A stretch of 43,989 bases of DNA from a virus. Shown piece after piece: positions 20,471 through 22,368 of this stretch. Positions within the stretch are counted from its first letter, which is position 1, and every line of letters begins with the position of its first letter. Under the pieces are notes generated by a model. It searched no databases. It was not told the DNA's origin and saw only the letters and a program-made list of their open reading frames with translations. Made by a program: the position numbers and the translations under genes. The DNA is taken from positions 1 to 43,989 of the IMG/VR virus record IMGVR_UViG_3300044732_000635. One strand, given 5' to 3'.

Positions 20471-21295
20471 TCAGGTCTCAGAGGTGCCGAACTTCTCGGC
20501 GAGCAGTTCGAGCCCGCGATCGAGACGCGACTTGAACGTCATGCGGGCAATACCTGCGTGCTCAGCGATCTGCACGACCGACCACTCGGGGTACTCGAGG
20601 TACAGAACGACCGCTTCTCGGTTGCGCTCAGGCAACTCAGCGACCAGCGCTAGAACACCTCCCACATCTCGCGATGCACTGGACGACTGGCTTATCTCCA
20701 ACGGCGCAAGAGCATGCACCGCATCAATGGACGCGCGCCCGACGAACTCGGGGTCAGCAGCAGTGTTGACATCATCATGCTCGGTGGTAGCCCAGTGATC
20801 ACCGAACGGCTGCTCGTCATCAAACGCCTCGTCGAAGACCTTGTCGTAGGACTCGACCTGCTCCATTGCCACGAAGGTCAGCAGAGCCGCGACCGACACA
20901 TCGTTGGACTTAGCGGCGTCCTGCATCGTCGTCTCGTTACCGAGCGCCCAGGAACCATCAACAGCCTGCATAGCCTTGTGCGCCTTGCGCAGGCGATTCA
21001 CCGTTGCATGCGGCATAGACGCATGCGCGGAGGACTCCAACGCCCAGCCCACCACGTTACCGAGATCGCGACGCAGCAGCCGCGCCTGCTCAGGCGTTGC
21101 CACCATCACGTACTCAATGGCTGCCAGCGTCGCCACCTGCATCGCCTCCTCCATGCCACCGAGGCGGTGCTTCCACTTGTCGGCTGGCTTAGCGATGTTG
21201 TTGTGGTACTCGCTAAGCAGCGCCTCGAGTGCCGAAGTGTCACCTGCCTGCGCGGCAGCGACCTGGGCTACATCTTCACTGTACGAACGGGTCAC
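20471..21295 (-). CDS. Sigma-70 region 4-like regulatory protein
   Basis: A 274-residue protein. The C-terminal 55 residues form a sigma region 4-type helix-turn-helix: LPERNREAVVLYLEYPEWSV followed by VQIAEHAGIARMTFKSRLDR. The N-terminal portion has an AQAGDTSALEALLSEYHNNI segment like the start of sigma region 2, but the central part is divergent. It may be a phage sigma factor or a sigma-like DNA-binding regulator. The GTG at 21295 follows GGAAGAA and structured leader element 3. Its 3' end carries repeat copy B. RNA polymerase binding is not demonstrated. Confidence 0.7.
   Translation of the reverse strand: MTRSYSEDVAQVAAAQAGDTSALEALLSEYHNNIAKPADKWKHRLGGMEEAMQVATLAAIEYVMVATPEQARLLRRDLGNVVGWALESSAHASMPHATVNRLRKAHKAMQAVDGSWALGNETTMQDAAKSNDVSVAALLTFVAMEQVESYDKVFDEAFDDEQPFGDHWATTEHDDVNTAADPEFVGRASIDAVHALAPLEISQSSSASRDVGGVLALVAELPERNREAVVLYLEYPEWSVVQIAEHAGIARMTFKSRLDRGLELLAEKFGTSET
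20472..20491 (+). repeat. 20-bp genome repeat, copy B
   Basis: CAGGTCTCAGAGGTGCCGAA. On the minus strand it spans the last codons (FGTSE) and first stop base of the sigma-like gene and lies 50 bp before the leader peptide of the reductase operon. Confidence 0.95.
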
Positions 21296-21303
21296 AGTCG
21301 TTC

Positions 21304-21381
21304 TTCCTGCACCGAGCACGTTCGGCTCGGACTGCGTGCCACGGGAGGGGCTTGCTCCCTCCATTGCCGCTAGTTCGTGGC
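21304..21381 (-). ncRNA. Structured 5' leader element 3 (upstream of sigma-like gene)
   Basis: Outer stem GCCAC/GTGGC (21377-21381 with 21338-21342) encloses an inner stem CCCTCC/GGAGGG... read as 21357-21362 with 21344-21349 round a 7-base loop. ACGCA follows, then a second hairpin CCGAGC/GCTCGG, then TGCAGGAAGAA ahead of the GTG. It shares architecture with elements 1 and 2. Confidence 0.65.
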
Positions 21382-21389
21382 GTCTGGCA

Positions 21390-21749
21390 TTAGGCGACTG
21401 CCAGTGTCCTGTAGTAGTTGGCCTTCGCAGCGTCGACAACCTTGCGCGACGCCGACGGTGACTCGAACGGCAGGTCCAACTCCGAGAGCAACAGGTTGCT
21501 CTTCGCCTGATTGCAGACATGGTGAGCGATCGCCAGGTTCTCTGGAATGTTCTCCCCGCCACGGTCCAGTGGGATCACGTGGTCGACTGTCGGAAAGAGA
21601 TCCGAGGGCTTACCGTTCGCCAGCCGAGTCTCCTCAGTAGCGATGCCGCACAAGTAGCACGGCGTCATCACGACACTCAGCGGGGCTGCAAGCATCCTGC
21701 GCGCCTGGGCGCGGGCGGTCTGCTTCTGGTTCTTCGTCATGCTCTTCAT
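21390..21749 (-). CDS. HNH endonuclease
   Basis: A 119-residue HNH nuclease. Zinc cysteines are at CYLCG (about residue 31) and the core is DLFPTVDHVIPLDRGGENIP, with catalytic His after VD, then NLAIAHHVCNQAKSNLLLSE. The N-terminus is basic (MKSMTKNQKQTARAQARRML). The ATG at 21749 follows GGAAGAAAGACG and structured leader element 2. It may be a homing-type nuclease inserted between two regulatory genes or serve DNA metabolism. Confidence 0.85.
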   Translation of the reverse strand: MKSMTKNQKQTARAQARRMLAAPLSVVMTPCYLCGIATEETRLANGKPSDLFPTVDHVIPLDRGGENIPENLAIAHHVCNQAKSNLLLSELDLPFESPSASRKVVDAAKANYYRTLAVA

Positions 21750-21791
21750 CGTCTTTCTTCCTGCAGCAGGGACGGTCGCCCTACGTTGCGT

Positions 21792-21831
21792 GCCAGCCGA
21801 GGACTCGAACCTCGGAGTATGCCTTTCTGGC
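21792..21831 (-). ncRNA. Structured 5' leader element 2 (upstream of HNH gene)
   Basis: Outer stem GCCAG/CTGGC (21827-21831 with 21792-21796). An 11-base linker leads to inner stem CCGAGG/CCTCGG (21810-21815 with 21797-21802), capped by the T-loop-like TTCGAGT. It resembles a tRNA acceptor/T-arm minihelix without D or anticodon arms. It lies 43 bp before the HNH start. Confidence 0.75.
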
Positions 21832-21850
21832 GCGATACACTCATCGACTG

Positions 21851-22087
21851 TCACATCTTCTGAACGGTCATGGAAGTGTGCAGTTCGTTCTTCGGATGGT
21901 TGACCTGCGCCCGAAGGAGATCGGTCAGGAAATCAATCTCATAATCGATGTCGCCCTGGGTGATCTCGGGATCGATGTCGGCACCGCGCTTGTTCCTGTC
22001 ACTGATGTACTGAGTGATCCAAGCCGTGCGAGCCAGCGCATCAGTCTCGAGAGTGATGACTACCTTGGTGTTCGTAATTGTGTTCAT
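21851..22087 (-). CDS. Hypothetical protein downstream of structured leader 1
   Basis: A 78-residue protein (MNTITNTKVVITLETDALAR...), probably a beta strand followed by helices, with an acidic middle (ADIDPEITQGDIDYEIDFLT). I recognise no family. ATG at 22087 follows AAGG. It is the first gene after a TATAAT-containing AT-rich promoter-like region and leader element 1, so it may be an early regulatory product. Confidence 0.65.
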   Translation of the reverse strand: MNTITNTKVVITLETDALARTAWITQYISDRNKRGADIDPEITQGDIDYEIDFLTDLLRAQVNHPKNELHTSMTVQKM

Positions 22088-22127
22088 AACCTTGTTTCTG
22101 CACCGCCGACAGGGCGACGGATTGCGT

Positions 22128-22167
22128 GCCAGTCGAGGACTCGAACCTCGAGGTATGCCGTTCTGGC
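22128..22167 (-). ncRNA. Structured 5' leader element 1 (upstream of 78-residue gene)
   Basis: Outer stem GCCAG/CTGGC (22163-22167 with 22128-22132). An 11-base linker leads to inner stem TCGAGG/CCTCGA (22146-22151 with 22133-22138), with loop TTCGAGT. Compared with element 2, the first pair of the inner stem changes from C-G to T-A, a compensating change. ACGCAA and a second hairpin follow. Confidence 0.75.
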
Positions 22168-22260: not shown

Positions 22261-22316
22261 CTTGTCAAGAAGTTGCTCGAATGTAATTTGGTCAAACTTT
22301 CTTGACTGGATTATAC
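22261..22316 (-). promoter_or_regulatory. AT-rich leftward promoter and inverted-repeat operator candidate
   Basis: On the minus strand a perfect TATAAT at 22315-22310 would start RNA near 22303, inside a dyad made of GTCAAGAAGTT (22264-22274) and AACTTTCTTGAC (22295-22306), apart from one extra base. The -35 match is weak (TGGTTT at 18 bp). The dyad over the start point is a typical place for a repressor. A rightward pair TTGGTC/TTATAC with 17-bp spacing overlaps it. Confidence 0.5.
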
Positions 22317-22368
22317 ACACGTCGAGACGCGTGAAACCACTATTGGCTCTTTTTCTGTGTGTTCTGCG

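Follow-up and report, generated by a model that had tools for sequence, protein, structure and literature searches.

Minimal tRNA mimics between phage genes: a family of intercistronic RNA elements that host RNase P may cut

Polycistronic RNA of mitochondria is punctuated by transfer RNAs (tRNAs). Ribonuclease P (RNase P), which docks on the tRNA elbow (PMC4919913), also cuts hairpins composed of acceptor stem, T-stem and T-loop at the correct site, measuring a conserved length of about 12 bp, and its known targets include the phage M3 and C4 RNAs and the T4 gene 32 mRNA (PMC11143913). The start-associated sequence (SAS) of cluster K mycobacteriophages is a 13-bp word of the GGGATAGGAGCCC type resembling a ribosome binding site, and the extended form (ESAS) consists of 17-bp inverted repeats (PMC3203893). 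Here we describe three short elements, E1 to E3, on the minus strand of the IMG/VR virus record IMGVR_UViG_3300044732_000635 (43,989 bases; “the window” denotes this whole stretch of DNA). Judged by homology and covariation, they almost certainly belong to a family of structured tRNA-like RNAs, and the best explanation, to which we assign a probability of about 0.55 from sequence analysis, is that they are minimal tRNA mimics set between phage genes, at which the message would be cut by host RNase P. The elements are undescribed in Rfam 15 and in open-access papers: Rfam 15 holds no family for them and gave no match at the gathering score in the window and none on the elements of ten element-bearing loci, and no description was found in the open-access literature.

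E1 to E3 follow a common plan of an acceptor-like stem, a short linker with GGCA, and a 6-bp stem carrying a 7-nt loop:

22128..22167, minus strand: E1, mini-tRNA class b; 22167-22128 = GCCAG AACGGCATACC TCGAGG TTCGAGT CCTCGA CTGGC
21792..21831, minus strand: E2, mini-tRNA class b; 21831-21792 = GCCAG AAAGGCATACT CCGAGG TTCGAGT CCTCGG CTGGC
21338..21381, minus strand: E3, mini-tRNA class c; 21381-21338 = GCCACG AACTAGCGGCAAT GGAGGG AGCAAGC CCCTCC CGTGGC

In E1, an acceptor of 5 bp and the linker AACGGCATACC precede a T-stem of 6 bp with the T-loop TTCGAGT; E3 has an acceptor of 6 bp, the linker AACTAGCGGCAAT, and a stem of 6 bp with the loop AGCAAGC. The 3′ strand of the inner stem abuts the 3′ strand of the acceptor without a gap in all three, and each shows the features of a tRNA half, namely an acceptor stem continuous with a T-arm and a conserved T-loop. 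ARAGORN and Rfam found no tRNA in the window; the linker measures merely 11–13 nt, and there is no cloverleaf with an anticodon arm. All parts that the initial annotation had described for three leaders of the same plan were found on the minus strand at E1–E3. Folding energy z-scores of the three leaders (0.2 to −1.7) are unremarkable, and the word GGCACGCA on its own has an expectation of about 3.6 occurrences in the window, its frequency being near chance. Neither the folding energy nor this word proves structure; the proof lies in homologues and in unselected covariation. Because the energies were unremarkable and no statistics can be based on only three copies, homologues were sought.

The exact pattern TGGCACGCA..TGCAGRAA was discarded as a family search, having returned three near-identical contigs only. 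A fold descriptor of two abutting stems followed by ACGCA, run on relatives fetched by their DNA polymerase, retrieved independent elements in locus L219 and in locus L143, where three copies precede three consecutive genes. Among the matches listed for a T-arm/ACGCA pattern in viral contigs were many real tRNA arrays and many miniatures of 39–65 nt, downstream of which lie a ribosome site and a start codon. With the T-loop word, the descriptor gave 175 matches, some of them from loci that had been fetched with that same word, compared with 0–5 per word for seven permuted loop words; on unbiased relatives, the T-loop word gave 10 matches and permuted words 0–5. Two classes align well: class b, with the linker GGCATAC and the loop TTCGAGT, includes E1 and E2, and class a is characterized by the linker ATGGTCGYAG and the loop TTCGACT. 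A covariance model (R2) trained on five class b elements taken from four further phage records, with no window sequence, and run with filters off recovered E1 at 55.3 bits (E 1.2e-12) and E2 at 55.0 bits (E 1.4e-12), E-values of such models being rough; the third match in the window reached 19.8 bits. A class a model placed E2 first and E1 second, both weakly. Besides the held-out model match, E1 and E2 have the class b linker GGCANAC and a Watson-Crick pair, A–U in E1, between linker base X (in GGCANXC) and T-loop position 60. Since 92 loci of DNA polymerase relatives contain no class b element (best E 0.27), the window lineage appears to have acquired its elements horizontally; minimal elements were likewise not found in Sonali, Jace, CN1A, WRightOn and Weasels2. 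At L385:4192-4233, a class a element and another just upstream of it stand in tandem, two bases (AC) apart, ahead of one gene.

The stems were examined with a pattern restricted to linker and loop, GGCANACNNNNNGGTTCGAGTCC, which leaves the stem letters free and was scanned in viral contigs. Among the matches listed, there were at least 172 distinct ones in at least 103 loci; all nine free stem pairs were complementary in 148 of the 172 (86%), in 95 different stem combinations, whereas a mixed control, combining the 5′ strands of one element with the 3′ strands of another, paired fully in 59 of 1983 trials (3%). Tertiary contacts covary as well. X and position 60 formed A–U 27 times, G–C four times, C–G twice and U–A once in 39 model matches; the pair is Watson-Crick in 204 of 206 elements (shuffled mean, 133), with all four Watson-Crick pairs in use, and without exception in the 43 elements where position 60 is not T, X not having been a selection criterion. 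Position 18 (G or A) tracks T-loop position 55 (U or G), with G–U in 190 and A–G in 15 cases. The X–60 and 18–55 contacts are what an elbow between D-loop and T-loop would give. Covariation in alignments A5 and A6, whose members had been picked for their pairing, does not enter as independent evidence; since loop or tail words had served to retrieve some of the loci, figures for the tail come from sets without such selection. The initial annotation proposed that the elements form a family of RNAs acting in cis and resembling the acceptor/T-arm of a tRNA; this is strongly supported by homologues in many unrelated phages, by overwhelming stem covariation and by the covarying contacts of linker and T-loop. 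As to its own criteria, it had named a lack of homologues and of covariation as grounds for abandoning the idea, and both are present.

E3 was not recovered by models R1 or R2. A search for the loop [AT]GC[AG]AG returned 31 elements, compared with 2–11 for four control loops; a linker of the AGC..GGCA type occurs in 11 of the 31, E3 included, and in none of the controls, and a ribosome site with a start accompanies 28 of them, compared with one or two per control. The E3 linker AACTAGCGGCAAT is matched by those of L465 (AACCAGCGGCAA, loop TGCAAGC) and L357 (ACTAGCGGCA, loop TGCGAGC), and in this linker register E3 has G as X and C at position 60, so that pairing is kept. Having the linker A(C/T)AGC(A)GGCA and the loop [AT]GC[AG]AG, E3 belongs to a sister class, class c; its one unusual base is A54, a position at which T prevails in the others.

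Downstream of each of E1–E3 come, in order, ACGCA, a second hairpin of 6 bp, TGCAG and a ribosome site rich in purines, and the next start lies 40–42 nt past the element (78-residue open reading frame (ORF) at 22087, HNH gene at 21749, sigma-like gene at 21295):

22123..22127, minus strand: ACGCA tail of E1, with R73 and C74 and no CCA
21787..21791, minus strand: ACGCA tail of E2
21333..21337, minus strand: ACGCA tail of E3
22103..22120, minus strand: second hairpin, copy 1, before the ribosome site
21766..21784, minus strand: second hairpin, copy 2, before the ribosome site
21312..21330, minus strand: second hairpin, copy 3, before the ribosome site, paired in the minimum-free-energy fold

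The strands of each second hairpin are complementary within their own element only, mixing across elements yielding 2–3 of 6 pairs. A 3-base pseudoknot between ACG and the loop of the second hairpin was considered; the bases involved barely vary. The stops of the preceding genes end 19 nt before E2 and 8 nt before E3, and neither a consensus promoter nor a minus-strand terminator was found in the stretches ahead of these two elements. The initial annotation, which placed the elements in gene leaders, needs a minor correction here: E2 and E3 sit within what looks like a single message, between its genes, and not in promoter leaders of their own.

In the family at large, the gap from the upstream stop to the element peaks at 6–8 nt, the next start mostly follows 20–55 nt after the element, and a ribosome site with a start is found at a distance of up to 80 nt in 130 of the 148 fully paired class b matches listed. 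Between element and start, a second hairpin of at least 7 bp occurs in 46% of class b, compared with 7% of shuffles. R73 and C74 are each kept in about 97% of class b (C74 in 143 of the 148 matches listed). Twenty elements of the phages Papyrus and Verse, taken with no tail selection, all start with G (20/20); position 73 is A in 18 and G in two, position 74 is C in 20 of 20, position 75 is never C, and position −1 is mostly A and never in Watson-Crick register with 73. The larger class b set agrees with this pattern of tail and ends.

When one contig region rich in elements was compared with named phages by blastn, the matches were 44-nt islands only, each of them an element, in the Mycobacterium phages Papyrus, Send513, Rope and others and in Streptomyces phage Verse; they are annotated in none. 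By inspection and model matches, an element occupies 13 of the 15 intergenic gaps listed for Papyrus and 7 of 13 gaps in Verse, several of the remaining gaps of the latter looking promoter-like. Copy density reaches seven elements within 6.6–12.6 kb. Class b elements also occur in AT-rich contigs (30–48% G+C), which suggests non-actinobacterial hosts; in L402, L406, L413 and L418 (30–38% G+C), likely from non-actinobacterial phages, they precede genes with little or no Shine-Dalgarno (SD) sequence. Two known RNAs were encountered in element-bearing loci: a GOLLD RNA (190 bits) in a wide gap between Papyrus genes (L395:4797-5256), and a Pistol ribozyme match (65.8 bits) at L388:4240-4305 (IMGVR 3300005367_000113), a short contig that also carries four mini-tRNA elements; the ribozyme is another RNA-cleaving device on an element-bearing message.

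By sequence and covariation, the fold is a stack of acceptor stem and T-arm, 11–12 bp long, without a D stem, an anticodon arm or a CCA end, in which the linker with its GG (AG in class c) is a D-loop remnant that docks on the T-loop to form a tRNA elbow. Host RNase P would recognise the elbow and the acceptor end and cut 5′ of the first G, splitting the polycistronic transcript so that each downstream gene receives a message of its own. The folded element, often together with the second hairpin, would cap the new 5′ end and slow its decay, and the cut would detach the ribosome site from the cistron upstream. Without C75 and CCA, the element would be neither matured nor charged like a tRNA. 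RNase P is favoured because of the stop–element–start spacing, the determinants G1, R73-C74 and −1, and its known recognition of acceptor/T-arm substrates; by sequence, the elements offer an 11–12 bp stack from T-loop to 5′ end, an elbow, G1 and an unpaired −1/73. That phages infecting several actinobacterial hosts carry the elements, as do AT-rich contigs, speaks for conserved host machinery. That the elements act through a host tRNA-binding factor is probable, whereas the odds that RNase P cleavage is their main role appear evenly balanced. The wider proposal, that operons of phages infecting several bacterial phyla are punctuated by pared-down tRNAs cut by host RNase P and bearing a new linker–T-loop pair, an undescribed class of RNA that would turn one transcript into many capped messages, is offered tentatively.

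Several observations weigh against cleavage by RNase P. The enzyme normally reads R73-C74-C75, and the elements lack R73-C74-C75-A and avoid C75; the strongest point against a standard RNase P substrate is this missing C75, which may prevent the element from being handled as a tRNA. The class b stack has 11 pairs, not 12, E3 is without U54 and U55, and the closest relatives are without the minimal element, which is hence dispensable to the lineage. Moreover, binding without cleavage is conceivable for a tRNA-like RNA. In such an uncut translational element, a tRNA-binding protein of host or phage, or the ribosome, would bind the fold and set translation of the next gene, which we consider rather unlikely. 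It would account for the elements standing nearly always beside a ribosome site, with the second hairpin just before it, and it is the idea of the initial annotation, by which the elements may control the translation of a regulatory cluster. However, the fold does not overlap the ribosome site, hosts differ and the genes downstream of elements elsewhere are diverse (helicase, integrase, HU-like protein, unknowns), so that no shared regulator is apparent, and the conservation of G1 and R73-C74, together with the lack of pairing at −1/73, is typical of a cleavage site; processing accounts at least equally well for the stop–element–start geometry and the RNase P-like determinants.

Processing at the 3′ side by RNase Z, which would clamp the elbow and cut after position 73 to leave a short leader often starting with the second hairpin, seems improbable. 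The elements are without CCA, an RNase Z antideterminant (PMC4919913), and the second hairpin often starts a few nt past position 73; but an almost invariant C74 is unexpected if only cutting after 73 mattered, and the constant G1 and the 6–8 nt gap to the upstream stop would go unexplained. An element acting at the DNA level, such as an operator or a mobile repeat with dyads that merely look like RNA, would agree with the recurring intergenic position and the several copies per genome, yet it is most improbable given that elements with start context lie upstream of genes on the coding strand and that the T-loop and non-dyad tertiary contacts are conserved while stem sequences are free to change. 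Decayed tRNA genes or attachment-site fragments, derived from the 3′ ends of host tRNA genes, are scarcely credible. Although some relatives have near-complete cloverleaves at similar places, both strands of both stems covary, the X–60 pair is foreign to tRNA, up to seven copies are clustered, the window integrase is of the serine type, and ARAGORN and Rfam detected nothing in the window; a full tRNA or attachment site was rejected as the identity of E1–E3, covariation opposing it.

Larger tRNA-like RNAs were observed in other loci. Upstream of the DNA polymerase of Arthrobacter-type relatives (L062-L071, L107, L123, L126, L130, L132, L181, L185), a T-arm ending ACCGGCC-AC is followed by GTTTACACGACC and the polymerase start; carrying a long variable insert, it seems to be a larger version of a tRNA-like RNA, placed at a conserved locus. 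Streptomyces phage or prophage loci (L138, L142, L146, L152, L154, L188, L190, L191) contain near-cloverleaf RNAs before gene starts, some of which ARAGORN reports as tRNA-Gly(ccc), Ala, Thr or “???”, with none reported in L191; these may be tRNA mimics annotated as tRNAs by mistake.

The DNA polymerase of the window shares about 57% identity with its counterparts in Azeevirinae phages of Arthrobacter (SWEP2, Soondubu, Liebe), and the window encodes a serine integrase. The minus-strand order is DNA polymerase I, DUF7169 protein, a 280-nt gap, 78-residue ORFan, HNH endonuclease, and sigma-70 region 4 protein, the last three genes being those that follow the elements:

21851..22087, minus strand: 78-residue ORF after E1, matching no known family
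21390..21749, minus strand: HNH endonuclease gene after E2 (Pfam HNH, 8e-9)
20471..21295, minus strand: sigma-70 region 4 protein gene after E3 (Pfam, 5e-7)

Because in the relatives examined DUF7169 is followed, across a gap of 70–320 nt, by a gene for a DNA-binding or sigma-like protein of about 265 residues, the 78-residue and HNH genes (21390-22087) look inserted between DUF7169 and the sigma-like gene when compared with all ten named relatives viewed. The sigma-like gene of the window would be the counterpart of the relatives’ gene, the homology being weak but positional. Searches by tblastn with the 78-residue and sigma-like proteins against named phages gave no matches. Leaders of the sigma-like gene in L063, L064 and L066 contain repeated palindromic words of the TTGCGTGAG/GCGTCT type, probably operators or promoters, with which CACGCGTCTCGACGTGTGTATAAT, near 22310-22333 of the window, may be compared.

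If host RNase P does cut at the elements, this would be a simple answer to how long polycistronic phage transcripts of small genes yield separately regulated, stable messages, and would mean that phages employ host RNase P extensively on their mRNA. As Papyrus (Mycobacterium smegmatis) and Verse (Streptomyces venezuelae) carry elements, the proposal is directly testable. Work on RNase P, RNase Z and other molecules that bind the elbow could also draw on the 40-nt fold as a naturally occurring, minimal tRNA mimic with an elbow, and the family adds many intergenic RNAs missed by present annotation.

Compared with described systems, the elements resemble mitochondrial tRNA punctuation in that a tRNA-shaped RNA lies between a stop and the next start with little spacer, but they are non-tRNA miniatures in operons of DNA phages, with an SD sequence and a leader downstream. 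Like the tRNA-like structures at the 3′ ends of plant RNA viruses, they are viral RNAs that mimic the acceptor/T half of a tRNA; unlike these, they are internal, precede genes, lack CCA, and occur in many copies in bacterial DNA viruses. The SAS/ESAS of cluster K (PMC3203893) and of Microbacterium cluster EF (PMC7302621) are likewise repeats just upstream of many small non-structural gene starts; neither a 13-bp word of the SAS type nor 17-bp inverted repeats were found at E1–E3. The cluster EF ESAS was rejected as the same element, the GTAGAG motif of AnnaSerena lying in promoter-like sequence with no T-arm. With the hairpin substrates of RNase P (PMC11143913), the elements share the acceptor stem stacked on a T-arm, the T-loop and the unpaired −1/73, and phage RNAs are among those cut by host RNase P; as putative substrates, they differ in being natural, repeated and intercistronic, and in combining a D-loop remnant and an X–60 pair with the absence of an RCCA end.
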